From Marvinbryantia formatexigens (GTDB lineage Bacteria; Bacillota; Clostridia; Oscillospirales; Ruminococcaceae): DNA of 64,000 nt. The notes below the pieces were generated by a model. That model made no database searches, had not been told where the DNA came from, and saw only the letters and a program-made list of their open reading frames with translations. The DNA lies in contig JAETPU010000011.1 of assembly GCA_021771035.1 (NCBI GenBank), positions 1 through 64,000 of the forward strand, read 5' to 3'. The stretch's first letter is position 1. Each line of letters opens with the position of its first letter. The position numbers and the translations under genes were made by a program. Below, in pieces: positions 4,723-63,665 of this stretch.

Positions 4723-5580
4723 ATGGGAACAAGCGGATTGATATGCCCAATTTGCCAAGGGGAAATTTTAGAAGGGCAAGCGGCAAAATGCTGTGAGGGA
4801 TGCGGGGTATGGCATCACCTGGAATGCTGGGAAAAAAACCAAGGATGCTCCACGGACGCCTGCCGCGCCCATCAGGATGTACAGCCCAGCGCAGAGCCTG
4901 CCGGGGAATGGGAACCCCAAGCTCCCGTTAGTGAACCTGTGACAGATAGTTCAGCGCGCCCTCCTGAGGAACCTGGAGGAAAGAAGAAAAAGAAAACATG
5001 GCTGCTGATCCTGGCAGTGCTTCTGGCGGTTATACTGGTAATCGCAGGAGCGGCAGCGTTTCTGATAGGCAGGGCAAACCGCAGGCAGAACGAACAGGAG
5101 GCCCGCCAAAGACAGGAAAATGCCCAATACGCAGTGGCGTGTTACAGGAATGACGCCAAGGCGTTTTGCATGACCTCCATCATGCTGGGTTCCGGTATGG
5201 AGGATATCGGCAACGAGGTGAAGAAATTTTGGGGCGCCTATATTATAAACCAGACCTCTTACAAAGGGCACAGCTTTTATAGTGCGCAGAGTGCGGTATC
5301 GGCATCCCGAATTGAACAGTCCGAGAATATTGAAAAGGCTAAAAAGGCGGCTCCTATGATGAAATCCATGTATGAAGCCCTGCAGAATCTGCCGGATGAA
5401 AACGACGAGGAGCTGCAGGATATCAAGGATGCGGTGAAGGAACTTTATGCGGCCTACGAGGATATGTATGACTGTGTCATGGATGTTTCCGGCAGCTATA
5501 TTTCCTTTGGAAGCCGCTTCAGCAGCGCTGACAGTACCCTGGCCAGAAAATACAGAGCTTTAAATTCGCTGTTGGATTGA
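4723..5580 (+). CDS. second membrane-anchored RING-finger protein
   Basis: 285 residues. It repeats the architecture of the preceding gene: zinc finger C8-x2-C11, C23/C24, C27, H31/H32, C35, C42, C47; a Pro/Glu-rich linker; a KKKKK patch; and one membrane helix (about 92-114). The C-terminal domain differs: it is helical and Lys/Glu/Met-rich, with a likely coiled-coil segment (about 115-140). The tandem arrangement suggests a duplicated RING-TM module joined to different sensor domains; that is inference. The ribosome site GAGGAGG precedes the ATG. A C/G-rich hairpin follows the stop. Confidence 0.7.
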   Translation: MGTSGLICPICQGEILEGQAAKCCEGCGVWHHLECWEKNQGCSTDACRAHQDVQPSAEPAGEWEPQAPVSEPVTDSSARPPEEPGGKKKKKTWLLILAVLLAVILVIAGAAAFLIGRANRRQNEQEARQRQENAQYAVACYRNDAKAFCMTSIMLGSGMEDIGNEVKKFWGAYIINQTSYKGHSFYSAQSAVSASRIEQSENIEKAKKAAPMMKSMYEALQNLPDENDEELQDIKDAVKELYAAYEDMYDCVMDVSGSYISFGSRFSSADSTLARKYRALNSLLD

Positions 5581-5611
5581 GGCCTCCCTTTTTAGACTGA
5601 ATTGGAATCCA

Positions 5612-5657
5612 GCCGCCCCTTCCCTCTCCTGTACTGTTACAGGGGAAGGAGGGGGCT
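5612..5657 (+). terminator. hairpin after the RING-protein pair
   Basis: A purine/pyrimidine arm pair (CCCCTTCC with GGAAGGAGGGG, plus CCTGTA/TACAGG near the tip) can fold just after the second RING gene. No T-run follows, so termination efficiency is doubtful. Confidence 0.4.
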
Positions 5658-5716
5658 TATTGCTGATCTGGGTATCCCTGCATAGTTGCCGGGACGTCAG
5701 GGACAAACGCGATGAT

Positions 5717-5945
5717 TTATGGTACAATATTCGCGTGGAACGCGAATATCTCGAAGTTTCCCTCACCGGCCCCAAGGCACGGCCGGTGTTTGGCAAAGCC
5801 AAACCGCGAAACTTCCCGGTTCCTTCAGGTTTTATGGTACAATATTCGCGTGGAACGCGAATATCTCGAAGTTTCCCTCACCGGCCTGAAGGTACGGCCG
5901 GTGTTTGGCAAAGCCAAACCGTGAAACGTGCCGGTTGGTTCGAAA
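5717..5945 (+). repeat. structured repeat units A and B (115-base period)
   Basis: Two tandem near-identical units. Each begins with a TATGGTACAAT box (TACAAT at 5723 and 5838) that runs into a hairpin ATATTCGCG/CGCGAATAT. A three-way junction follows. In unit A the closing stem is GAAGTTTC (5753-5760) with GAAACTTC (5808-5815), and the inner hairpins are CACCGGCC/GGCCGGTG (5764-5788) and TTTGGC/GCCAAA (5789-5803). Unit B keeps both inner hairpins with changes mainly in loops. The next box, of unit C, lies exactly 115 bases after that of unit B. Confidence 0.85.
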
Positions 5946-6040
5946 GCTATGGTATAATAACCTCACGCTGTTATCCAAATCAAAGATTTGGACAGCTGAG
6001 AGAACATTGAACCACGGGTATGAAAGCTCCGCTTTCTATT
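5946..6040 (+). repeat. structured repeat unit C (CTCACGC type)
   Basis: TATGGTATAAT (box 5953-5958) is followed by ACCTCACGC, then a long hairpin with TCCAAATC/GATTTGGA at its tip, the conserved tail GAGAACATTGAA and a small GAAAGC/GCTTTC hairpin (6022-6036). The same modules in the same order occur twice on the minus strand near 27.3 kb. Confidence 0.8.
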
Positions 6041-6141
6041 TTATGGTATAATAAACGCAAATAGCGGTAAAAACGGCATTGGCCGTTTTTGCGGATGCAT
6101 TTCTTTTACCGACTGGTAGCAAGCCGATAAGCGGCTTGTAT
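6041..6141 (+). repeat. structured repeat unit D (TTTCTTTTACCG type)
   Basis: TATGGTATAAT (box 6047-6052). CGGTAAAA pairs with TTTTACCG around an inner AAACGGC/GCCGTTT hairpin, and CAAGCCG/CGGCTTG forms a final hairpin (about 6120-6138). The block from TTTCTTTTACCG to GGCTTG recurs at 20041-20085. Confidence 0.75.
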
Positions 6142-6235
6142 TTATGGTATAACAACCTCACGCCGTGAACGGATGCATAGCTGTAGACTGCGCAGTTCAG
6201 ATTGTCTGTACGCGGCGGGAAGAAATGCGGTATGA
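6142..6235 (+). repeat. degenerate structured repeat unit E
   Basis: It opens with TATGGTATAAC and ACCTCACGC like unit C, but the rest has diverged; CGCCG (6161) can pair with CGGCG (6213). It is the last unit of the array before the NUDIX gene. Confidence 0.55.
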
Positions 6236-6304
6236 GCAGAAAATCATCATCCGAGAGCAGGTTCAGGCTGGTATGGTAGGAAACGGAATTGCAATTGGGA
6301 TACT

Positions 6305-6339
6305 GTATCTAAAAAGATACGATTAGTATTTTTTGATAC
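6305..6339. promoter_or_regulatory. tandem GTATC...GATAC motifs upstream of NUDIX gene
   Basis: GTATCTAAAAAGATAC (6305-6320) is a perfect 16-base palindrome. AGTATTTTTTGATAC (6325-6339) follows and resembles the A-tract motifs at 526-540 and 623-637. They lie 44-78 bases before the start codon, an operator-like position. Confidence 0.45.
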
Positions 6340-6382
6340 AGAATTTTGGAAAGAAAACTGACAGAATTGTGGGGGACAGGCT

Positions 6383-6841
6383 GTGAGGACAGTGGAAAAA
6401 GCGATTTTTACAAATATGTGTATGCTCCGGGACGAACAGGGCCGGGTACTGGTGCAGGACAGGGCAGATCCCCAATGGGGTGGGCTGACGTTTCCCGGCG
6501 GCCATGTGGAGCCCGGAGAATCCTTTACCGACGCCATGGTGCGGGAATTTTTTGAGGAGACGGGGCTTACGATCTCGCAGCTGCGGCTGTGTGGAATCAA
6601 ACAATGGCCCTGTGAGAACGGCGCCCGTTATGTGGTGTTATTCTACCGGGCGGAGGCATTCACGGGAGAATTGTGTTCCTCCGAGGAGGGGGAAGTTTTT
6701 TGGATGGAAGTGCAGGACCTGCAGAATTCCCCCAGGCTAGCGCCGGATATGGATAAGATGCTCCGGGTATTTTTGGAGGATTCTCTGACAGAGCATTACT
6801 ATGGCCTCCAGGATGGGGAGTGGAAGGAAAGCCTGAAATAA
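6383..6841 (+). CDS. NUDIX hydrolase (MutT-like)
   Basis: 152 residues with a complete Nudix box: G40-x5-E46-x7-R54-E55-x2-E58-E59-x-G61. Such enzymes hydrolyse nucleoside diphosphate derivatives with a divalent metal. The sequence pattern around GGLTFPGGHVEPGES is typical of proteins annotated as 8-oxo-dGTP diphosphatase, but substrate cannot be told from sequence. The start is GTG at 6383 with GGGGGACAGG immediately upstream. The gene stands alone downstream of the repeat array and of the GTATC palindrome. Confidence 0.85.
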   Translation: MRTVEKAIFTNMCMLRDEQGRVLVQDRADPQWGGLTFPGGHVEPGESFTDAMVREFFEETGLTISQLRLCGIKQWPCENGARYVVLFYRAEAFTGELCSSEEGEVFWMEVQDLQNSPRLAPDMDKMLRVFLEDSLTEHYYGLQDGEWKESLK

Positions 6842-24613: not shown

Positions 24614-25198
24614 TCAGTCGTAGTAACGGATCAGGGAAACGACTTTGCCGAGAATCGAGACCTCGTCCACAATGATGGGATCCATGGTATCATTTTCCGG
24701 CTGCAGGCGGAAATGGCCGTCTTCCTTATAAAAGCGTTTTACCGTGGCTTCATCCTCCACCAGGGCCACCACGATTTCCCCGTTTTGAGCATAGGGGGTT
24801 TTACGCACAATGATCACATCGCCGTCATAAATACCTACATTAATCATGCTTTCGCCCTTGACGTGCAGGGCAAAGAGATTTTCCGAGGAGTTGGCCTCCA
24901 TACGGTAGGGGATATAGTCCTCAATATTTTCTACAGCCAGGATAGGCGTCCCGGCGGCAACCGTACCCACCAGAGGAACACGGGCGGCGGCGCGGGGCTG
25001 AGCCAGGCGAATAGAGCGATTGAGGTTTTCGCCCCGGATGATGTATCCCTTTTCCTCCAGTTCCTTGAGGTATTTGTGAACTGTGGAGGTAGATTTGATT
25101 GACAGGGTGGAACAAATTTCCCGCACGGACGGCGGGACTCCATCGTCGATACAATCCTCTACATATTTCAAAATGCGCGCTGCCTTTTCGCTGAGCAT
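24614..25198 (-). CDS. lexA: LexA repressor
   Basis: 194 residues. An N-terminal winged helix (about 1-65, with PSVREICSTLSI and STVHKYLKELEEKGYI) binds SOS operators. The S24 domain follows. The cleavage site Ala82-Gly83 in VGTVAAGTP, the nucleophile Ser117 in KGESM and the lysine K154 in ATVKRF are all present, so RecA-stimulated self-cleavage should work. A promoter TTGAAA-18-TATGAT lies upstream with an SOS-like near-palindrome between the boxes, suggesting autoregulation. A candidate RNA gene runs divergently. Confidence 0.95.
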   Translation of the reverse strand: MLSEKAARILKYVEDCIDDGVPPSVREICSTLSIKSTSTVHKYLKELEEKGYIIRGENLNRSIRLAQPRAAARVPLVGTVAAGTPILAVENIEDYIPYRMEANSSENLFALHVKGESMINVGIYDGDVIIVRKTPYAQNGEIVVALVEDEATVKRFYKEDGHFRLQPENDTMDPIIVDEVSILGKVVSLIRYYD

Positions 25199-25229
25199 AA
25201 TTTTTACCGCCTCTCACGTTCTTTTTTCT

Positions 25230-25259
25230 ATCATACCACAAACCATATGTTCTTTTCAA
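25230..25259 (-). promoter_or_regulatory. lexA promoter with SOS-box-like spacer
   Basis: Minus strand TTGAAA (25254-25259), 18-base spacer, TATGAT (25230-25235). The spacer holds AGAACATATGGTTTG, where AGAAC and GTTTG half-sites are five bases apart rather than the usual four. It is a near-match, not a consensus SOS box. Confidence 0.5.
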
Positions 25260-26984: not shown

Positions 26985-27496
26985 CTAGCCGGGGATCTAT
27001 AGCAGAGAAGTTGCGGAACCTGCAGCAGCGGCCACAATCCAAATGTTTCCCGGGCAGGCGGCGTGGTTTAATTTGGAGGGAATTGGCTGAATTCCCGGAT
27101 TGGACGCCGGATACCTGAGCGCGTACCGCCTAACTGCTTGTGCAGTTCACTGGAAGAAGGACACGTTTGCCGCTGACCGGGTTTTCCGGCAACATTTCCG
27201 GCGACTTAAACGAGTTTCGGAATATTATCCAGGTACAGAACCTTTCTGCATGGATATTTTTACGACATCATCTATACTAAAGCATAAAGAGAAAGCGGCT
27301 TCGATGTTCTCACAGCCGTCCAAAGCTATGCTTTGGGATATGGCGTGAGGTCATTATAGCATAAAAAGAAAGCGGAAGCTTTCAAACAAAGCGGCTTCAA
27401 TGTTCTCACAGCCGTCTGAAGCTTTGCTTCAGTACACGGCGTGAGGTCATTATAGCACAGGGGATTTCCCCACATCAAGAGAAAGGAAGAAGAGCG
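26985..27496. other. divergent intergenic region with inverted repeat copies
   Basis: Between the AraC remnant and the URO-D family gene. The first 280 bases hold nothing that I can support; the rest is two repeat copies, listed separately. Confidence 0.5.
27272..27456 (-). repeat. structured repeat copies G and H (C type, minus strand)
   Basis: Read on the minus strand, GCTATAATGACCTCACGC occurs twice, with boxes at 27449-27454 and 27353-27358, 96 bases apart. Each is followed by a hairpin, CTGAAGC/GCTTCAG in one and CCAAAGC/GCTTTGG in the other, closed by GCC/GGC, then GGCTGTGAGAACAT and GAAGCCGCTTT. The module order matches unit C at 5.95 kb, with stem sequences changed on both sides. Confidence 0.85.
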
Positions 27497-32094: not shown

Positions 32095-32857
32095 GCTGCG
32101 GCCTCCTTTCAGGGCTTGGGGTTCCGGCTTATTCAAAAAGCCGGAGGGTTTATGGTGGTTCATTGGGCCGGGCGAATAGGCGGCTCAGGCAGGCCTTCTT
32201 CCGGGCTTGGGGCACCAGGGAATGAGCATCAGACGGTGCGGCGGCCTCAGTGCCGGGAAAAACTTGGATGAGCCTGTTTGGCACACCGGATGTCCGGGGA
32301 TTGGCGCCGGCCAATGGCAACCGGAACTTGATTGGCAGCAGAAGTTCAAGACAGCCGCGCCCTGCGCGACTATTGTAGCACGCCTTGTCCGCTTACACAA
32401 GCGCCGGCAGGGCGTTTTTTAGGGCCCTGGTTCTAGGATTCCCCACAGGGCCTGTTTTAAAAGGTGTGTTTGCAACATTTGAACACAGGACGCCTGCGGG
32501 CAGGGTGGCTGAGGGGAATGTCGGTGACGGCCTGCCGGACAGGTACGTCGGGGACTGTGTGTTTTTGGAGGGTAAGGTTCGCCTTTGGGATGCCGGGAGA
32601 ATGGCGGATTGGTCCCAGGGGAGCGGGAATTGTCTTTGCGGCGCTGGGGGCAACTTGGCCGCCGAGGCCGCGCCGGAAGGGCAATGGGGGTGGATTTCCC
32701 GGATTTGGCGGAACTGCCCGGACACGTGGGCTGTCCCGGGAAGCAGCCCTTATTGGAACAGGGCCCGCAGAGCCATGCGGAATCGGGGCGCTATACAAAG
32801 AAAAGGAAAAATGTTACACTGAAAGGCAGGAACAGTTGAGATAAAGGAGAAGCTATC
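32095..32857. other. 763-base gap without supported gene
   Basis: GC-rich, with overlapping frames on both strands, none with a ribosome site or recognisable domain. The last 50 bases before the glycosyltransferase turn AT-rich and carry its AAAGGAG site. Confidence 0.5.
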
Positions 32858-35013: not shown

Positions 35014-35610
35014 ATGGCGCCGAAGATGGAAGAAAAAACTCTGGTTGTGAACGATTCCAAAGGAAAGTGATAAGGGAAAGGTCACCTGACGTAAGATAGC
35101 GAATACTTACACAAAGAGACGGCGTTTTTCGGGCGGTATCGGATGAGTCTTTGTTTGAATGTGTTGAAAGTTATAAAAATGGATGAATTCCTTATCGGGA
35201 AGGCGAACCCTTTCAGTTATTCCAGAGGTGGGCAAATGGCGCGTCAGAGAAAAAATTCGTAAGCTTGGTGAGCAAATTAGAAGCTTCGGCTTTCTTTTTA
35301 CGCGCAGGATCGGATTCACATTGACAAATTGATTTGCTTTTACAACCATGATCGTTTTTGCCTATAAAAGCACTGCCGTAACCCGGAGATTCATCGGAAG
35401 TGCGCCTAGTCCATTGAATGCTTAGTTGTTCAGCACCTCTGTGAAGTTTCGGGTAGACCCAAAACTTCCGTAGTCGGTTCAAGTTCCGTCTATGAAAGTT
35501 CTGCCGTAACTCGGGGGTTCATCGGAAGGGCACCGGAACGCGTTTCGTTTTATTCTTCACCTGGTTCCTCAGTGCCCCTTAGAAGGTCTAATTTTACATA
35601 AAAACAAAAC
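35014..35610. other. AT-richer intergenic region with a dispersed repeat
   Basis: No gene found between the lipoprotein terminator and the pheT terminator. The main content is the repeat at 35362-35545. Confidence 0.5.
35362..35545 (+). repeat. second repeat family, copy 1
   Basis: Landmarks in order: CTGCCGTAACCCGGAGATTC (35373), GTGCGCCTAG (35400), AAGTTTCGGG...CCCAAAACTT forming a hairpin (about 35443-35466), CCGTAGTC, TTCAAGTTC, and CTGCCGTAACTCGGGGGTTC (35501). The segment from GCGCCTAG to GGGGGTTCATC recurs on the opposite strand at 63540-63665. Within this copy the CTGCCGTAAC motif occurs twice, 128 bases apart, as if a second unit precedes. Confidence 0.75.
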
Positions 35611-39451: not shown

Positions 39452-39712
39452 AAAAGAAAAAGGCCCTCATCCCCAAAGGGACGAAAGCCTTGTTTTCGCG
39501 GTACCACCCTTGTTTCCGGCAGACGCCGGACACTCAAACCGGCTGTAACGGGCCGGAGCCGTTGCCGCCTACCACAACTGTTTCAGCGGCACCGTTCGTG
39601 AGTGAACTTCAGCAGTCCCCGATTTGCCGGATGCTTACAGCCGATGACATCCGTTCTCTGGAGCAAAGGAGCCGGGCGCTTACTCTCTCAGTCAATACGT
39701 TCTCATTTATGC
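39452..39712 (-). promoter_or_regulatory. T-box riboswitch, Phe (UUC specifier)
   Basis: On the minus strand the antiterminator sequence AGGGTGGTACCGCG is present (complement at 39497-39510), followed by the competing terminator AAGGC...GCCTT with a T-rich tail (39452-39491). The stem I region contains a TTC specifier within AAGTTCACTC (39604-39606), reading Phe. Uncharged tRNA-Phe would stabilise the antiterminator and switch on pheST. Confidence 0.95.
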
Positions 39713-41865: not shown

Positions 41866-43283
41866 AGATCCGCCTGGACGAGCCCTACCCCAAGCAGAGG
41901 GAGTTTTTTGAGGCAAACACCCGGTATGTGGCCTACGGCGGCGCCAGAGGGGGCGGGAAGAGCTGGGCGGCCCGGGTAAAGCTGATTTTGCTGGCGCTGG
42001 GGCAGCCGGGCATTCAGATGCTGCTGTTACGCCGGACCTACCCTCAGCTGCGGGAAAACCATATCCTAACCCTGCAAAAAATTTTAGGGGACGCGGCGGC
42101 GTACCGAGAGAGCCAAAAGGCGTTTGAGTTTCCCAATGGTTCCCGGCTGAAATTGGGGTATTGCAGCCGGGAGGCAGATGTGCTGCAGTACCAGGGACAG
42201 GCCTATGACGTGATTGTTTTGGAGGAGGCCACCCAGTTTACGGAGTTTCAGTTTCAGGCTCTCACGGAGTGCAACCGTTCCAGCGGGCAGATGCAAGGGG
42301 AGTTTCTGCCCCGGATGTATTTAACCTGCAACCCAGGCGGAGTGGGGCACAATTGGGTGAAGCGGCTGTTTATCGACCGGGATTACCGGGGCAGCGAGCG
42401 CGGGGAGGATTATACCTTCATCCGCAGCAATGTGTATGATAACGCCTATTTGATGGAGCATTCCCCCCACTATGTACGGACGCTGGAAAACCTGCCGGAG
42501 AACCGCAGGAGGGCCATGCTGTACGGGGACTGGGATCTCTTTGAGGGGCAGTATTTCAGCGAGTTCCGAAGGGAAATCCATGTATGCCGCCCCTTTGAGA
42601 TTCCTCAGGATTGGAGGCGGTATGTTTCTTTGGACTATGGCTTGGATATGCTGGCCTGTTACTGGATTGCCATGGATTCCCTGGGCAACGCCTGGGTGTA
42701 CCGGGAACTGTATGAGAGCGCGCTGATTGTCAGCGACGCGGCGCAGAGAATCCGGGAATGGGGCATGGGGGAGAAAATCCAGCAGTATTTTGCCCCGCCG
42801 GATCTGTGGAACCGGAGGCAGGACACCGGAAGAAGCGCGGCTGAGATTTTTGCCCGGCAGGGGATCTATTTGACAAGGGCCTCCAACGACCGGGTGAACG
42901 GCTGGCTGAGCCTCAAGGAGTGGCTCAAGCCCTACGGGGCGCAGGGAGGCGGGGATGATTCCCGTGCCTTGGAACCGGCCTTGTCAGGGGAAACCCTGCC
43001 GGGGGACTTGAATGGATCCCCGGCGGATTCCACCGGCTCCGGGAGGGAGGCGAGGCTCAAGATTTTCGAGAGCTGCCGAAACCTCATCCGGTGCCTGCCT
43101 GCCATCCAGTTTGACCCGCGCAATCCCAACGACTGTGCGGTTGTGCCCCACGAGGTGACCCATGCCTGCGACGCGCTGCGGTATTTTGCCGTCTCCAGGC
43201 CCCTGGGACCGCCGCGGGAGCCCGCGCCCGGCTGGGAGGAGGAATTGGATCAGGTAAGGGAGCTGATAGAGTATGGCATTTAA
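41853..43283 (+). CDS. terminase large subunit
   Basis: 476 residues, the packaging motor. The ATPase has a Walker A GGARGGGKS (29-37), Walker B VIVLEEATQF, and the coupling region TCNPGGVGHNWVKRLF. The RNase-H-like nuclease begins at VSLDYGLDM and later carries FARQGIYL and SNDRVNG. Length is normal for TerL. A low-complexity insert (about 360-395) resembles a tolerated expansion. The last about 20 codons (GWEEELDQVRELIEYGI) are duplicated four times downstream. No frameshift is seen, so it should be functional. Confidence 0.93.
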   Translation: MGEVKIRLDEPYPKQREFFEANTRYVAYGGARGGGKSWAARVKLILLALGQPGIQMLLLRRTYPQLRENHILTLQKILGDAAAYRESQKAFEFPNGSRLKLGYCSREADVLQYQGQAYDVIVLEEATQFTEFQFQALTECNRSSGQMQGEFLPRMYLTCNPGGVGHNWVKRLFIDRDYRGSERGEDYTFIRSNVYDNAYLMEHSPHYVRTLENLPENRRRAMLYGDWDLFEGQYFSEFRREIHVCRPFEIPQDWRRYVSLDYGLDMLACYWIAMDSLGNAWVYRELYESALIVSDAAQRIREWGMGEKIQQYFAPPDLWNRRQDTGRSAAEIFARQGIYLTRASNDRVNGWLSLKEWLKPYGAQGGGDDSRALEPALSGETLPGDLNGSPADSTGSGREARLKIFESCRNLIRCLPAIQFDPRNPNDCAVVPHEVTHACDALRYFAVSRPLGPPREPAPGWEEELDQVRELIEYGI

Positions 43284-43930
43284 AAAGGCGGGATGCCCCG
43301 TGCTGGGCATGGAGAAAACCCGACGGAGGCCTGGACTGGGTGCATGAGGAGAAAGCCATGCGGCCAGCGGGGGCAAGAGGGAGCCCGTGCTCGGCTGGGA
43401 GAAGGAATTGAAGCTCATGGAGTATGACGTTTAAAAAGACGGGATGCCCTGTGCTGGGCATGGAGAAAACCCGACGGAAGCCTGGGCTGGGTTCGCGGGG
43501 AGAAAGCCTTACGGACGGCGGGGCGGGAGAAAGCCCGAGTTCCGACTGGGAGGAGGAATTGAAGCTCATGGAGTATGACGTTTAAAAAGACGGGATGCCC
43601 CGTGCTGGGCGAGGAGAAAACTCGACGGAAGCCTGGGCTTAGTGCATGGGGAGAAAGCCGTGCGGACGGCGGGGGCAAGAGGGAGCCCGTGCCCGGCTGG
43701 GAGAAGGAATTGGATCAGGCTAGAGAGCTCCTGGCATATGGAATTTAAAGGGCGAGCCGCCCGGTGAGAGGAAGTGAGAGGATCCGGCGGAAGCCTGAAC
43801 TGAAGACGCAGCAAGAAAACCGTGCGGACAGTGGGGCAAGAGGGGAGCCTGAGCCGGACTGGGAGGAGGGGTTGGAGCAAGTCAGAGAGACTCCTGGGGT
43901 ACGGCGTTTAAAAGGGCGGCGAACGCCGGG
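43265..43930 (+). repeat. tandem copies of the terL 3' end
   Basis: After the terL stop (43281-43283), four further copies of its ending occur. Their TTTAAA signals are near 43431, 43581, 43744 and 43907, so unit lengths are about 150, 150, 163 and 163 bases. Each encodes in the terL frame a version of the C-terminus: WEKELKLMEYDV, WEEELKLMEYDV, WEKELDQARELLAYGI, and a frameshifted WEEGLEQVRE. The spacer between copies (GACGGGATGCCC, GTGCTGGGC, GGAGAAAAC, CGACGGAAGCC) is also repeated. Confidence 0.9.
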
Positions 43931-46480: not shown

Positions 46481-46939
46481 GAACTAGGCTTTGTGCCGGG
46501 CTTGGGTGTTCCGCTGTCCTCGGCTGCGTTGAGAGGCTGCCCGGTGTGGCGTGCAAAGCCCCACAGGGACAGTCCTCGGCGGCACAGCGTCCGTCAAGGG
46601 GCGAAGCCCGGCTGCGTTTGGGCAGTGCCATGGTTTTTTGTCCAGTGAGAACAAACGCGTCCCCTCAATCGGGGGCGGCATGGGAGAAAACTGTGGGTTT
46701 GCACTGAGCCCAGGCGCAGGGGAAGTTTTAGGGCAGGCGGGAAGTCCATCCAACGCGGCGCGCAGTGCCCCATAGGAAACCCTGAGACGCAGGACGCCTG
46801 GCAAGGAGAAGGATGGGGTTGCTTCCCGACAATCACAAGGGTATTCGTACAGTAAGAACAAACGCGTCCCCCCAAGCGGGGACGGCATGGGAGAAAACCG
46901 GCGCTCCGACAGCCGGAATAAGAAAGGAAGATAGAAATA
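46481..46939 (+). other. non-coding gap before the capsid gene, with direct repeats
   Basis: 459 bases without a supported gene. It contains two 51-base direct repeats (next entry). Frames on the minus strand here are artefacts of GC-rich composition. Confidence 0.6.
46643..46900 (+). repeat. two 51-base direct repeats
   Basis: 46643-46693 and 46850-46900 share AGAACAAACGCGTCCCC and GGCATGGGAGAAAAC with few mismatches, 207 bases apart. In the second, CGTCCCC and GGGGACG form a hairpin. The second lies just before the capsid gene ribosome site, so each may be a leader or processing element. Confidence 0.75.
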
Positions 46940-57411: not shown

Positions 57412-58368
57412 ATTAAGGCACCATCCTTTCAAAACAATTACCGGAGGTTCCCGCTGTGGGGCAAGGCTGCCTGGGTACCAAGGAGCCGCCTTTTTAACAG
57501 CCCGGGCTGGTGGATTCAGCGGCGCGTCTTGGGGCCTTCATGGCAACGGCGCTTCGAAATTTGCCGAAGCCCAGATTCCGGCACGATGTCCTTGACAGGA
57601 AGCACCGTTTCAGACAGCGGATCTAAAAATCGGAATGCCGGTGCCGCATTGCCCCTTTGCCGGACATGGGGCGAGCCGTATTTACAGTGCTTTGAATGAT
57701 TTTCGGCCGCTGTTATACTTATAACTTAACAAAATTATATAAAAAAGTAAATGGGTTTTATAAAAAATCTATAATTGTGGACTTGGCGGACATTTTGGGT
57801 TGCCGGGTTTGGAACGCACAAGAAAATTCTTCTGATAGGGCCTTCGGTTTTGAGCGGAAGTTTACTTCTGAGGGACTGGCGGTTATCCCGCAAGAATCCA
57901 CAGCGCGTTTCTTTTCATTTGAGGAAAAGGATGGTATAATAATCACGCAAAGCGTGATTATTAAGGAGTTTCGTTTGCCGGTCAAGCAACGACCGGCATT
58001 CAGCTGCCGCTGAACCACGAAACGTCCCGGCTGGTTCTAAAATGATGGCATAATGCTCCCACAAGGAGTGAATGTGCAATCAGCTTCGATAATGCAATCA
58101 TCGGTGATCATTGGGGGAGCTTTGTCTGCCGGTCAAACGGGGGCGGTCATTCAGCAGAGGCCCAAGGGCGAAATGCTCCGGTTCATCTTAACGGGGGGAC
58201 CATATTCGCACATGGCTTGCGTCTGCAAGGGCAGTTTGGCTCATAGACTGTAAGTACCAGGCAGCGGAAAGCGGATGATTTGCCCCGGGGCCCGGTGCCG
58301 CCGGGGGATTCGACTGAGAAATCCAGCTTGATAGGCTGATTGTATGAGAGCGGGAGGGGGATTGGAGT
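57412..58368. other. 957-base gap with repeat copies
   Basis: No supported gene. An AT-rich patch (57710-57780) precedes repeat copies I and J. A frame at 57696-58013 runs across the repeat and is considered chance. Confidence 0.5.
57928..58115 (+). repeat. structured repeat copies I and J (A/B type)
   Basis: Copy I: TATAAT box (57935-57940) overlaps hairpin TAATAATCACGC/GCGTGATTATTA (57937-57963). The junction closing stem GTTTCGT (57968-57974) pairs with ACGAAAC (58017-58023) and encloses GCCGGTC/GACCGGC (57977-57997) and TTCAGC/GCTGAA (57999-58014). The tail CGTCCCGGCTGGTTC leads to the next box CATAAT (58049-58054), 114 bases on, where truncated copy J starts. Confidence 0.85.
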
Positions 58369-60687
58369 ATGGCGGTGCCCGAAGGCATTCAATTTCATAC
58401 GGCGCCGGATGGTTCGCTGGATTCCCTGAGTGCGGGCGGCTGCCCAGTCCCTCTGCGCCGGGAACGGTACCGGGGCATGAAGCTATGGCTGCAGATGGCA
58501 GGCGAGCCCCGGGAAATCCCGCTGACCCCGGTGGGGGAAAGCGTATTTGCCGCCAGGGTGCACGAGCAGGACTACCAGCTGAGCTACCGGGAGACAGGCG
58601 GCGCCTTGGAGGTGAAAATCCGGGTACACAACTCGGACGAGGTCTCCTTTTGTCCCAGAACCTTGTTTTTGACCACGGGTATCGACTGCTATATGGAGCG
58701 GTATCCCCAGTGGAACGAGATGCTGTTTCCCACCCTGCTGCGGTGTGAAAAGACGCATTTCTGGGGATACTGTATGTCGCCCCAGGGGATGGTGCTGGCC
58801 ATGGCGTCGCCGGATCCCATCGCCTCCTGGAGTTTGGAATACTCCCGGCTGCAGGACGAATGGAGCGAGCACCACTATCTCACGGGAGGGCACCGGATTG
58901 ATACCTTTCACCTGCATCTGCTGGCCGCGCAGCCGCAGCCGCAGCGGCATCCGGTGCTGCAGTCCGTAGGGGCGCACGACACCAGGGAGTGGACGCTCTA
59001 TTTTTCCCGGGTGGATTCCCCTGAGCTTGTGCTGCCTTGGTGCGCTCAGTTTTGCCGGGCTCCCATGCTGGCGTTAGAGCGGTATACGGTGGATCCGGGG
59101 GAGACGGTGGCAGGAGTGCTCCTGTCCGGGCCGGGAACCGTTCATCTGACGCTTTTGGAGCCCGACGGCAGCTCCAGGCCGGTGGCGGTGCGCGCTTCGG
59201 GGTTTTCTTTGGAGGCACCGGGGGCGGTGGGGCTGTATACCCTGCGGGCCCAGTGGGGCTTAAAAGTCAGCGAGGGCAGCTTTTATGTCAAACGCAAAAA
59301 CTCCTGGTATTTAAGGATGGGCCGCCAGGCGGTATTGGAGAACCCGCCGGTGTATACACACCATGTGGAGGCGTTTTTAAGCCTGTATACCATCCTTCTC
59401 GCCCGCAAGCACCTGCCGGACGAGCGGCAGGATGCCCAGTGTGAGGAGTATTTTCAGGAGATATTGGAAAAACTATACAATCCCCAGACAGGCCGGGTGC
59501 GGGAAAATCCCTGGAGAATCCAGGACAGCGCGGCGCTGGGCGCCCTGATGGCCCTGCGCTACACCGTCACCGGGGATCCCCGGGATCTGCACACCGCGGG
59601 CAGTCTGGCGGATTATCTGATGGAGTGCCAGGGGGAGGACGGCGCCTATTACAGCATGCCGTCTCCTCAGATGGTGTCCCCCGAGCAGGGGACCCATTAC
59701 ACGGCGGTGACCTATATCGCCAAATATGTGCTGGAGGTCTCCCGGGAGGAGGAGCTGGCCGCCCGGGAATATCCGGAATTCCTGGAGAGTGCCCGCCGGC
59801 ACCGGCAGAGCGCCCAGCGGGCCATTGCCGAATTGGAACGCAGCCGGGACAACATCGAAACCGAAGGGGAAATGACCTTTGAGGACGGCATGATCAGCTG
59901 CAGCCTTTTGCAGATAGCCTTCCGGGCGCTGCAGATGGCCCAGTCCCCGGAGAGACAGCGGTATGCGGATACCGCCCGCGAGATGGCCCGGCTCCACCGC
60001 TGCTTAACCCAGCAGCTGGTGCCGGACTGCCGGATGAACGGGGCCACGCTGCGGTTTTGGGAGGCCCAGTACAACATTCACCTGTTCCACAACGGAATGA
60101 ATTCCCCCTGCGGATGGACCTGCTGGAAGGTGTACGGGGACTACTATTTATACCTGCTCACCGGAGAGCCCCAGTACCTGCGCGAGGCCATGAACGGCCT
60201 GGGGGCGTGCTTACAGCTGGTGGATGGGAAAACCGGGCATCTGCGCTGGGGCTTTCTGGCGGATCCGCACATTGAGTGCCTGCGGTTTGTCCCATGCGGG
60301 CAGGGGGATGAGGAGGGAAAGCTCATCTGGGATACGGTCGGGGAGCAGTACCTGGAGCAGGTGAGCTCCTGGCACCGGACACAGCCATTCCCCCGCCCAA
60401 AATGGGGAATTGACAACCTGGTGCACGAGATATTCAAATGCCTGGCGGAAATCTCCCTTACCAATGCCTTTGTCATCTGGCGGGAGGGAAAACTGACAGC
60501 CTACAACTGCCGGGTCACCCGCAGAAAGGACGGCAGCCTGCTCATACTCCCCAGGGAGGAGCTGGTGTGCCGGGTGCACTGCAATTTCGATGAGGACACC
60601 AATGTGGAGGTCCGTTTTTCGGGGCGGACTGTGTGCGACAGGCGCCGGTTCGGCTGGGTTTGGCGAATGGGGCCGCCCGCCCCATAA
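58369..60687 (+). CDS. large cytosolic protein, possible alpha/alpha-barrel glycosidase-like
   Basis: 772 residues, no signal peptide. The N-terminal 300 residues look beta-rich. From about 315 a series of paired helices (VEAFLSLYTILLARKHL; DSAALGALMALRYTV; TYIAKYVLEVSREEELA; ISCSLLQIAFRALQMAQ; NSPCGWTCWKVYGDYYLYLL; VHEIFKCLAEISLTNAF) recalls six-hairpin (alpha/alpha)6 glycosidases and lyases. No catalytic signature recognised. GGGGGATTGGAG precedes the ATG. It sits alone before metG. Confidence 0.5.
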   Translation: MAVPEGIQFHTAPDGSLDSLSAGGCPVPLRRERYRGMKLWLQMAGEPREIPLTPVGESVFAARVHEQDYQLSYRETGGALEVKIRVHNSDEVSFCPRTLFLTTGIDCYMERYPQWNEMLFPTLLRCEKTHFWGYCMSPQGMVLAMASPDPIASWSLEYSRLQDEWSEHHYLTGGHRIDTFHLHLLAAQPQPQRHPVLQSVGAHDTREWTLYFSRVDSPELVLPWCAQFCRAPMLALERYTVDPGETVAGVLLSGPGTVHLTLLEPDGSSRPVAVRASGFSLEAPGAVGLYTLRAQWGLKVSEGSFYVKRKNSWYLRMGRQAVLENPPVYTHHVEAFLSLYTILLARKHLPDERQDAQCEEYFQEILEKLYNPQTGRVRENPWRIQDSAALGALMALRYTVTGDPRDLHTAGSLADYLMECQGEDGAYYSMPSPQMVSPEQGTHYTAVTYIAKYVLEVSREEELAAREYPEFLESARRHRQSAQRAIAELERSRDNIETEGEMTFEDGMISCSLLQIAFRALQMAQSPERQRYADTAREMARLHRCLTQQLVPDCRMNGATLRFWEAQYNIHLFHNGMNSPCGWTCWKVYGDYYLYLLTGEPQYLREAMNGLGACLQLVDGKTGHLRWGFLADPHIECLRFVPCGQGDEEGKLIWDTVGEQYLEQVSSWHRTQPFPRPKWGIDNLVHEIFKCLAEISLTNAFVIWREGKLTAYNCRVTRRKDGSLLILPREELVCRVHCNFDEDTNVEVRFSGRTVCDRRRFGWVWRMGPPAP

Positions 60688-63539: not shown

Positions 63540-63665
63540 TTGATGAACCCCCGGGTTACGGCAGTAATCTGATAGCCAGAACTTGAATTGACTACGGAAG
63601 TTTTGGGCTTGCCCCGAAACTTCTAAGGGATGCTGATAAACTAAGATTAGAACCAAGCTAGGCGC
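63540..63665 (-). repeat. second repeat family, copy 2 (inverted)
   Basis: Read on the minus strand: GCGCCTAG, CTTAGTT, CAGCA, GAAGTTTCGGG with CCCAAAACTTC forming a hairpin, CCGTAGTC, TTCAAGTTC, CTGCCGTAACCCGGGGGTTC. The same landmarks, in order and at similar distances, occur at 35400-35525 on the plus strand. Confidence 0.75.

Follow-up and report, generated by a model that had tools for sequence, protein, structure and literature searches.

Small interspersed repeats are common, and for most of them the way in which they move, and why their hosts tolerate them, is open. Insertion of the IS200/IS605 type takes place 3' of a short fixed sequence and involves elements with folded ends, and the Correia elements of Neisseria have terminal inverted repeats. 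Correia elements have been described as small insertions able to generate functional promoters, and the BOX elements of Streptococcus as modular, hairpin-forming intergenic repeats with variable internal modules, which are probably non-autonomous and can alter the expression of nearby genes (PMC3049150). The REP/BIME repeats moved by RAYT are short and folded, have a tag 5' of the hairpin, occur in arrays and are probably moved as single-stranded DNA (PMC3733652).

The repeats described here were found in a stretch of 64,000 nucleotides (the window) that corresponds to contig C38 of a genome of 3.27 Mb in 66 contigs (G000). The units at 5716-5945 and 57928-58042 are members of a large dispersed family of folded repeats of about 110 bases. 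The repeat has 54 BLAST matches in G000, and a covariance-model search of this genome, as proposed in the preliminary description, carried out with a model from 48 copies and with 150 candidates scored, rendered at least 136 copies at E≤0.001 in 85 arrays of 1-5 units each; many genomic copies were what that description had named as support for a structured element. A unit is made of the head TG-N-TAYAAT, a hairpin P1 whose 5' arm begins inside the -10 hexamer, and a closing stem P2 that encloses two inner hairpins, P3 and P4, for which there are two sequence versions that swap between units. An optional hairpin, CAATCATC...GATGATTG, is present up to three times per unit between P1 and P2 and is the sole repeated inner module, an array being otherwise a tandem of equal units. 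Unrelated bodies (C and D types) with the same head are found inside arrays, as at 5946-6140; they match about 60 places in G000, are dispersed in both G000 and its sister species G001, and stand head to tail with A-type units in a single array, the three families having only the junction sequence in common. Genes were called by codon score and named from their N-termini or Pfam. The features of the window are the following:

5700..5705, plus strand: -35-like GGGACA, 17 nt before the first -10 hexamer, matching TTGACA at 4/6 positions (by reading)
5716..5830, plus strand: A-type unit 1 (unit A), -10 hexamer TACAAT at 5723-5728, then P1, P2 with P3 and P4, and a linker; covariance-model (CM) score 119 bits
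5831..5945, plus strand: A-type unit 2 (unit B), -10 hexamer at 5838-5843; forms a 115-bp tandem direct repeat with unit 1 (90% identity); CM 122.7 bits
5946..6037, plus strand: C-type unit, head TATGGTATAATA, different body with the hairpin CTCACG.../...TGAGAG (z -4.9), ending in a terminator-like GAAAGCTCCGCTTTC and a T-rich tract
6038..6140, plus strand: D-type unit, head TATGGTATAATAAACG, same as in the C type, different folded body (z -3.7)
6141..6240, plus strand: last, degenerate unit of the first array, head TATGGTATAACAACCTCACG; downstream, at 6383, is a NUDIX gene read in the same direction
25199..25259, minus strand: empty site, promoter TTGAAA-18-TATGAT of the gene at 24614-25198, presumably LexA-like by its N-terminus
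27280..27460, minus strand: two tandem C-type units, heads TATGCTATAATGACCTCACG
32280..32384, minus strand: degenerate A-type unit, CM 35.6 bits
57928..58041, plus strand: A-type unit I, -10 TATAAT at 57935-57940, -35-like TTTTCA at 57912-57917 with 17 nt spacing; CM 102 bits
58042..58185, plus strand: diverged A-type unit in which inserted CAATCATC.../GATGATTG hairpins separate P1 from P2; a gene follows at 58369 in the same direction

In the C-type units (5946-6037 and 27280-27460) a terminator-like hairpin and T-tract stand directly before the next -10 head, so that an array could halt upstream transcription and then restart it.

The window also contains repeats of other kinds: an inverted dispersed pair at 35356-35523 and 63542-63614, 28 kb apart and 84% identical over 73 nt; a direct repeat of 82 nt at 46610-46691 and 46817-46898, 78% identical and well conserved in its second half (ACAAACGCGTCCCC...CGGCATGGGAGAAAAC); and three tandem repeats with a 151-bp period at 43242-43712, which are 74-85% identical. 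A T-box leader (Rfam RF00230, 111 bits) is located at 39474-39704 on the minus strand.

At gathering score, nothing in Rfam 15 matched the units in the window, and a comparison at E≤1 over 5500-6400 gave nothing meaningful, in agreement with the earlier remark that no named family looks like this. Searches of phage, plasmid and IMG/VR sequences gave no match to the units either, and, with no link to a Y1 transposase (see below), the copies are not explained as fragments of a known insertion sequence, an outcome that the preliminary description had named as a refutation.

Units A, B and I fold alike, with z-scores of -2.7, -2.9 and -5.8. In the alignment of 48 copies, standard pairs account for 95.5% of the pair cells and 132 cells are changed on both sides, against 45.6 in shuffles and at most 17 in a control with the partners slid by 1-3 columns, which bears out the common layout with paired stem changes first noticed in these three units. 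The addition of the sister species G001 and the genus of G005 (three genera) rendered double changes in 34 of 34 pairs and 462 double-changed cells, against 126 in shuffles, and copies from other genera (about 19 further genomes) rendered 714 against 189, the alignments that extend beyond the first 48 copies (A2 and A3) having been fitted to the structure and being biased towards it. The stems are rebuilt with entirely different letters and, together with the slid controls and the sequences as read, this makes selection on the fold plain. As for the closing stem, its pairing is kept, as had been described, but it is less perfect than was thought, since at one of its pairs (alignment columns 45/96) about half of the G000 copies have C.A.

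Transcribed RNA tolerates G.U and not A.C. The mismatch counts of G.U to A.C were 29:54, 76:79 and 45:54 in the alignments A1, A2 and A3, respectively, and 29:25 and 74:48 when two special columns of P2 were left out, whereas tRNA from the same loci gave 19:0, this being a small control for which the tRNA finder favours G.U. Since G.U does not exceed A.C, it does not look as if the copies were maintained as RNA genes, and a folded DNA strand, selected when the element moves, is more likely and fits better than a maintained RNA. It could also be the case that the ratio reflects in part the neutral decay of old copies. The preliminary description had proposed selection on a folded RNA or on single-stranded DNA; the folded strand stands, and a ratio near 1 speaks against the RNA.

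The arrays are not placed at random with respect to genes. In G000, 52 of the 60 arrays with a callable downstream gene point at it, with 50% expected (ca. 3e-9, one-sided binomial), while the orientation of the upstream gene is random (27:31) and a position between the ends of two convergent genes is rare (4 of 58 arrays). The first heads of 11 of 53 arrays have a -35 (at least 4/6 positions) at exactly 17 nt, other spacings being found 0-4 times; an independent set, comprising other genera and the sister species, has a -35 at 17 nt in 11 of 34 and TTG there in 13 of 34, and the first head of the array L188 belongs to a perfect TTGACA-17-TATAAT. Internal heads lack a -35 at 17 nt because the tail of a unit precedes them, and about half of the terminal heads are degenerate. 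The spacing of the first heads indicates that they are the host genes' own promoters. On these grounds the TATAAT-like head reads as a real sigma-70 -10 box, which in the first unit would be the -10 of the host gene promoter and in later units a carried replacement. The suggestion that each head is an independent promoter box of a small RNA gave way to this assignment, which the empty sites considered below also favour.

Orthologous promoters were matched by protein or DNA anchors in draft genomes of species representatives; 20 kb of window DNA was too diverged from G001, so that protein anchors were used. Both junctions are clean only at ddl, which we take from its N-terminus to encode D-Ala-D-Ala ligase, and several of the other sites have a 3' junction that is blurred. 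The filled ddl promoter, in G191, reads TTGCCA-17-TATAAT, followed by two units (108 and 111 bp) and then by AACTGGGAGCATACCC; each of these units ends in TATGGTATAAT (TTTTTTATGGTATAAT), next to which the native start region begins. In G257 and G101 the site is empty and reads TGTAGTATAAT|AAC.AGAAGC, with TGTAGTATAAT standing directly before AACAAGAAGCATACCC or AACTAGAAGCATACCC. The ddl unit runs GATTGGC...TATGGTATAAT, and its ends are not inverted copies of each other. TATAAT is found on both sides of the insertion, as a target-site duplication would show it, but may be carried by the unit.

The left junction lies at the hexamer in the resolved empty sites. At array 2 of L197, for instance, G191 and G257 are homologous up to and including TATGATATAAT, and no longer from the following base on. 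The promoter of the LexA-like gene, empty in the window, is filled in G001, where the same -35 region is followed by TACAAT and by two units starting at its -10, and where TATGAT, which is also the native hexamer, comes after the last unit. Because first hexamers are element-like (TACAAT) and the terminal ones differ by locus, a target-site duplication of the whole head is no more than a possible reading. The promoters of the MIVEPK gene and of L161/L233 are empty in G001 and filled in G000, and L213/L277 is a further empty/filled pair. At L151/L127 and L051/L137, G000 and G001 have arrays at the same gene with species-specific unit sequences, and arrays can therefore be old and turned over within a species. 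Loci L254 (G257) and L264 (G101), which are filled in sister species, have only a P1-like hairpin after the -10, which might be what is left of the element or its smallest form. The direction of change at the empty sites is our reading of these pairs, and an exact deletion, by recombination between the TATAAT copies on either side, would give the same picture.

These results are best accounted for, with a probability of about 0.75, if the units are short (ca. 105-118 bp), non-coding, non-autonomous mobile elements whose insertion site is the -10 hexamer of sigma-70 promoters, in most cases ones with an extended TGn motif, and which rebuild the promoter. The element starts at the host -10 and the native -35 is kept, while its TATGG-type tail leaves the native start region again behind a -10, as seen on the right side at ddl; each unit recreates the sequence in which it sits. 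The unit would be TAYAAT-P1-P2/P3/P4-TATGG if it goes in directly 5' of the native hexamer, and P1...TATGGTAYAAT if it goes in directly 3' of that hexamer; at ddl the hexamer is shared and the two registers are indistinguishable, and the LexA-like pair favours the 5' register. Arrays may grow by re-insertion into the -10 boxes of the units themselves and by local tandem duplication. With the target restored by every unit, an old unit could take up a new one of whatever family, which would give the mixed A/C/D arrays, and a contribution of local duplication is indicated by the likeness between units, which is 83% within one array and 75% between arrays. The moving substrate would be the folded strand (P1 and the three-way junction P2-P4), probably as single-stranded DNA. 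It might be recognised by an enzyme encoded elsewhere and acting in trans, and the open promoter is perhaps the source of a single-stranded target. The host would tolerate the insertion since a promoter is restored next to the gene, and all that the insert presumably adds is a folded leader together with at least one spare promoter.

The search for an autonomous copy with an internal gene covered the solo heads, which turned out to be only native promoters or decayed units. No mobilising enzyme was found, Y1 transposase being the candidate checked: the IS200-type/Y1 transposase (PF01797) is absent in G005, which has units, and present in many unit-free genomes.

It would also be conceivable that the units are a cis-regulatory RNA leader, similar to a riboswitch or an attenuator, which benefits the host by controlling the downstream gene and happens to be repeated. 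Such a leader would lie, as the units do, in the sense direction between promoter and gene, would show strong covariation and would be common to some orthologous loci (e.g. L151/L127); we nevertheless find it unlikely, given that G.U is not in excess over A.C, that the 5' arm of P1 extends over both the -10 and the expected start site, which keeps the first P1 from forming in RNA made from its own promoter, that the downstream genes look unrelated (ddl, NUDIX, LexA-like, response regulator), and that one sister species can have units at a promoter where another has none, with a freely varying number of units. Ordinary MITE- or REP-like repeats that insert at random, with selection leaving only the copies that keep a promoter, are less probable again. 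Purifying selection on promoters is to be expected, and the units are dispersed, intergenic and hairpin-rich as other small repeats are, but random insertion would leave copies in harmless places too, such as the convergent gene ends where so few arrays are found, and it explains neither the left junction at the hexamer nor three unit families with only the junction sequence in common. Least probable are arrays of small RNA genes, each unit being an autonomous transcription unit with its own -10 box: every unit has an extended -10 and C-type units close with a terminator-like hairpin and T-tract before the next head, but A-type units are devoid of a terminator, a start 7 nt past the hexamer would halve P1, the arrays are tied to downstream genes instead of being free-standing, and the mismatches have no RNA signature.

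The mobile element preferred here is not restricted to one species. With the three-genus covariance model it was detected in 30 of 397 genomes of the family, belonging to 16 of 126 genera, and also in several other families of the order; G563 has a tandem promoter-headed array, and three species of the genus g101 have ca. 40-100 BLAST matches each to one array-containing locus. Three-way junctions without a head are found in G313, G117, G216, G337, G086 and others, some of them directly after a stop codon, so that -10 targeting belongs to a subset. In other genera, the downstream gene is co-oriented for 23 of 28 promoter-headed copies, against 12 of 22 headless ones, and this lack of orientation bias in the latter implies that the fold predates the -10 habit or reaches beyond it. 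In G313, G117 and G216 (L191, L200 and L201, respectively) the stop codon of a FabG-like gene directly precedes the headless junction. In G137 (L216) and G400 (L220) the junction comes shortly after a strong promoter, TTGACA-17-TATAAT, and at L216 it is followed by a small hydrophobic ORF, MSVIEVLTLLLLIATIIDIVVGICNNKKK, which to our eye resembles holin-like type I toxins.

Sister species in which a promoter is empty in one and filled in the other reveal the insertion rule: a -10 is hit and a -10 is left. An element that brings its own replacement -10 box could spread without breaking the gene, and this self-repairing, promoter-specific insertion strategy becomes directly testable. The proposed reading predicts an enzyme whose recognition target is the hexamer or, alternatively, the open promoter. 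It would also mean that standard annotation overlooks stacked promoters and folded repeat leaders at dozens of genes in a genome of this kind.

No repeat that targets the -10 was found in the open literature searched, and we know of no described small repeat that uses the -10 hexamer as insertion site and rebuilds the promoter. The odds seem to us evenly balanced that these units represent a new class of mobile element, with the -10 hexamer, possibly in a strand-separated open promoter, as target, a folded DNA strand moved by an as yet unfound enzyme, and a promoter rebuilt on both sides; the element would possibly be categorically new if the enzyme and the target rule are confirmed. In the way it works, the element resembles the known small non-autonomous repeats, namely BOX, REP/BIME and Correia-type MITEs. 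Like BOX elements, the units are modular intergenic hairpin repeats near genes, but BOX is one inserted composite, boxA-boxB(n)-boxC, whereas here, as far as layout is compared, whole units stand head to tail, each starting from a -10 and containing a three-way junction. With REP/BIME they share short folded repeats in arrays and a tag 5' of a hairpin, but the REP tag is GTAG (or CGTC) beside a palindrome of 20-40 nt and a Y1 tyrosine transposase is present with the repeat, whereas in the copies read TAYAAT lies 5' of P1, the units have ca. 110 bp and a three-way junction, and no link to such a transposase was found. Insertion at a short fixed sequence and a folded element recall the IS200/IS605 type, from which the units differ in having a promoter hexamer as target, no correlating Y1 gene and no autonomous copy seen. 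Finally, the terminal inverted repeats of MITEs are missing from the ddl unit and, while Correia-type MITEs create promoters after inserting nearby, here the -10 itself is the target and the native start region is retained.
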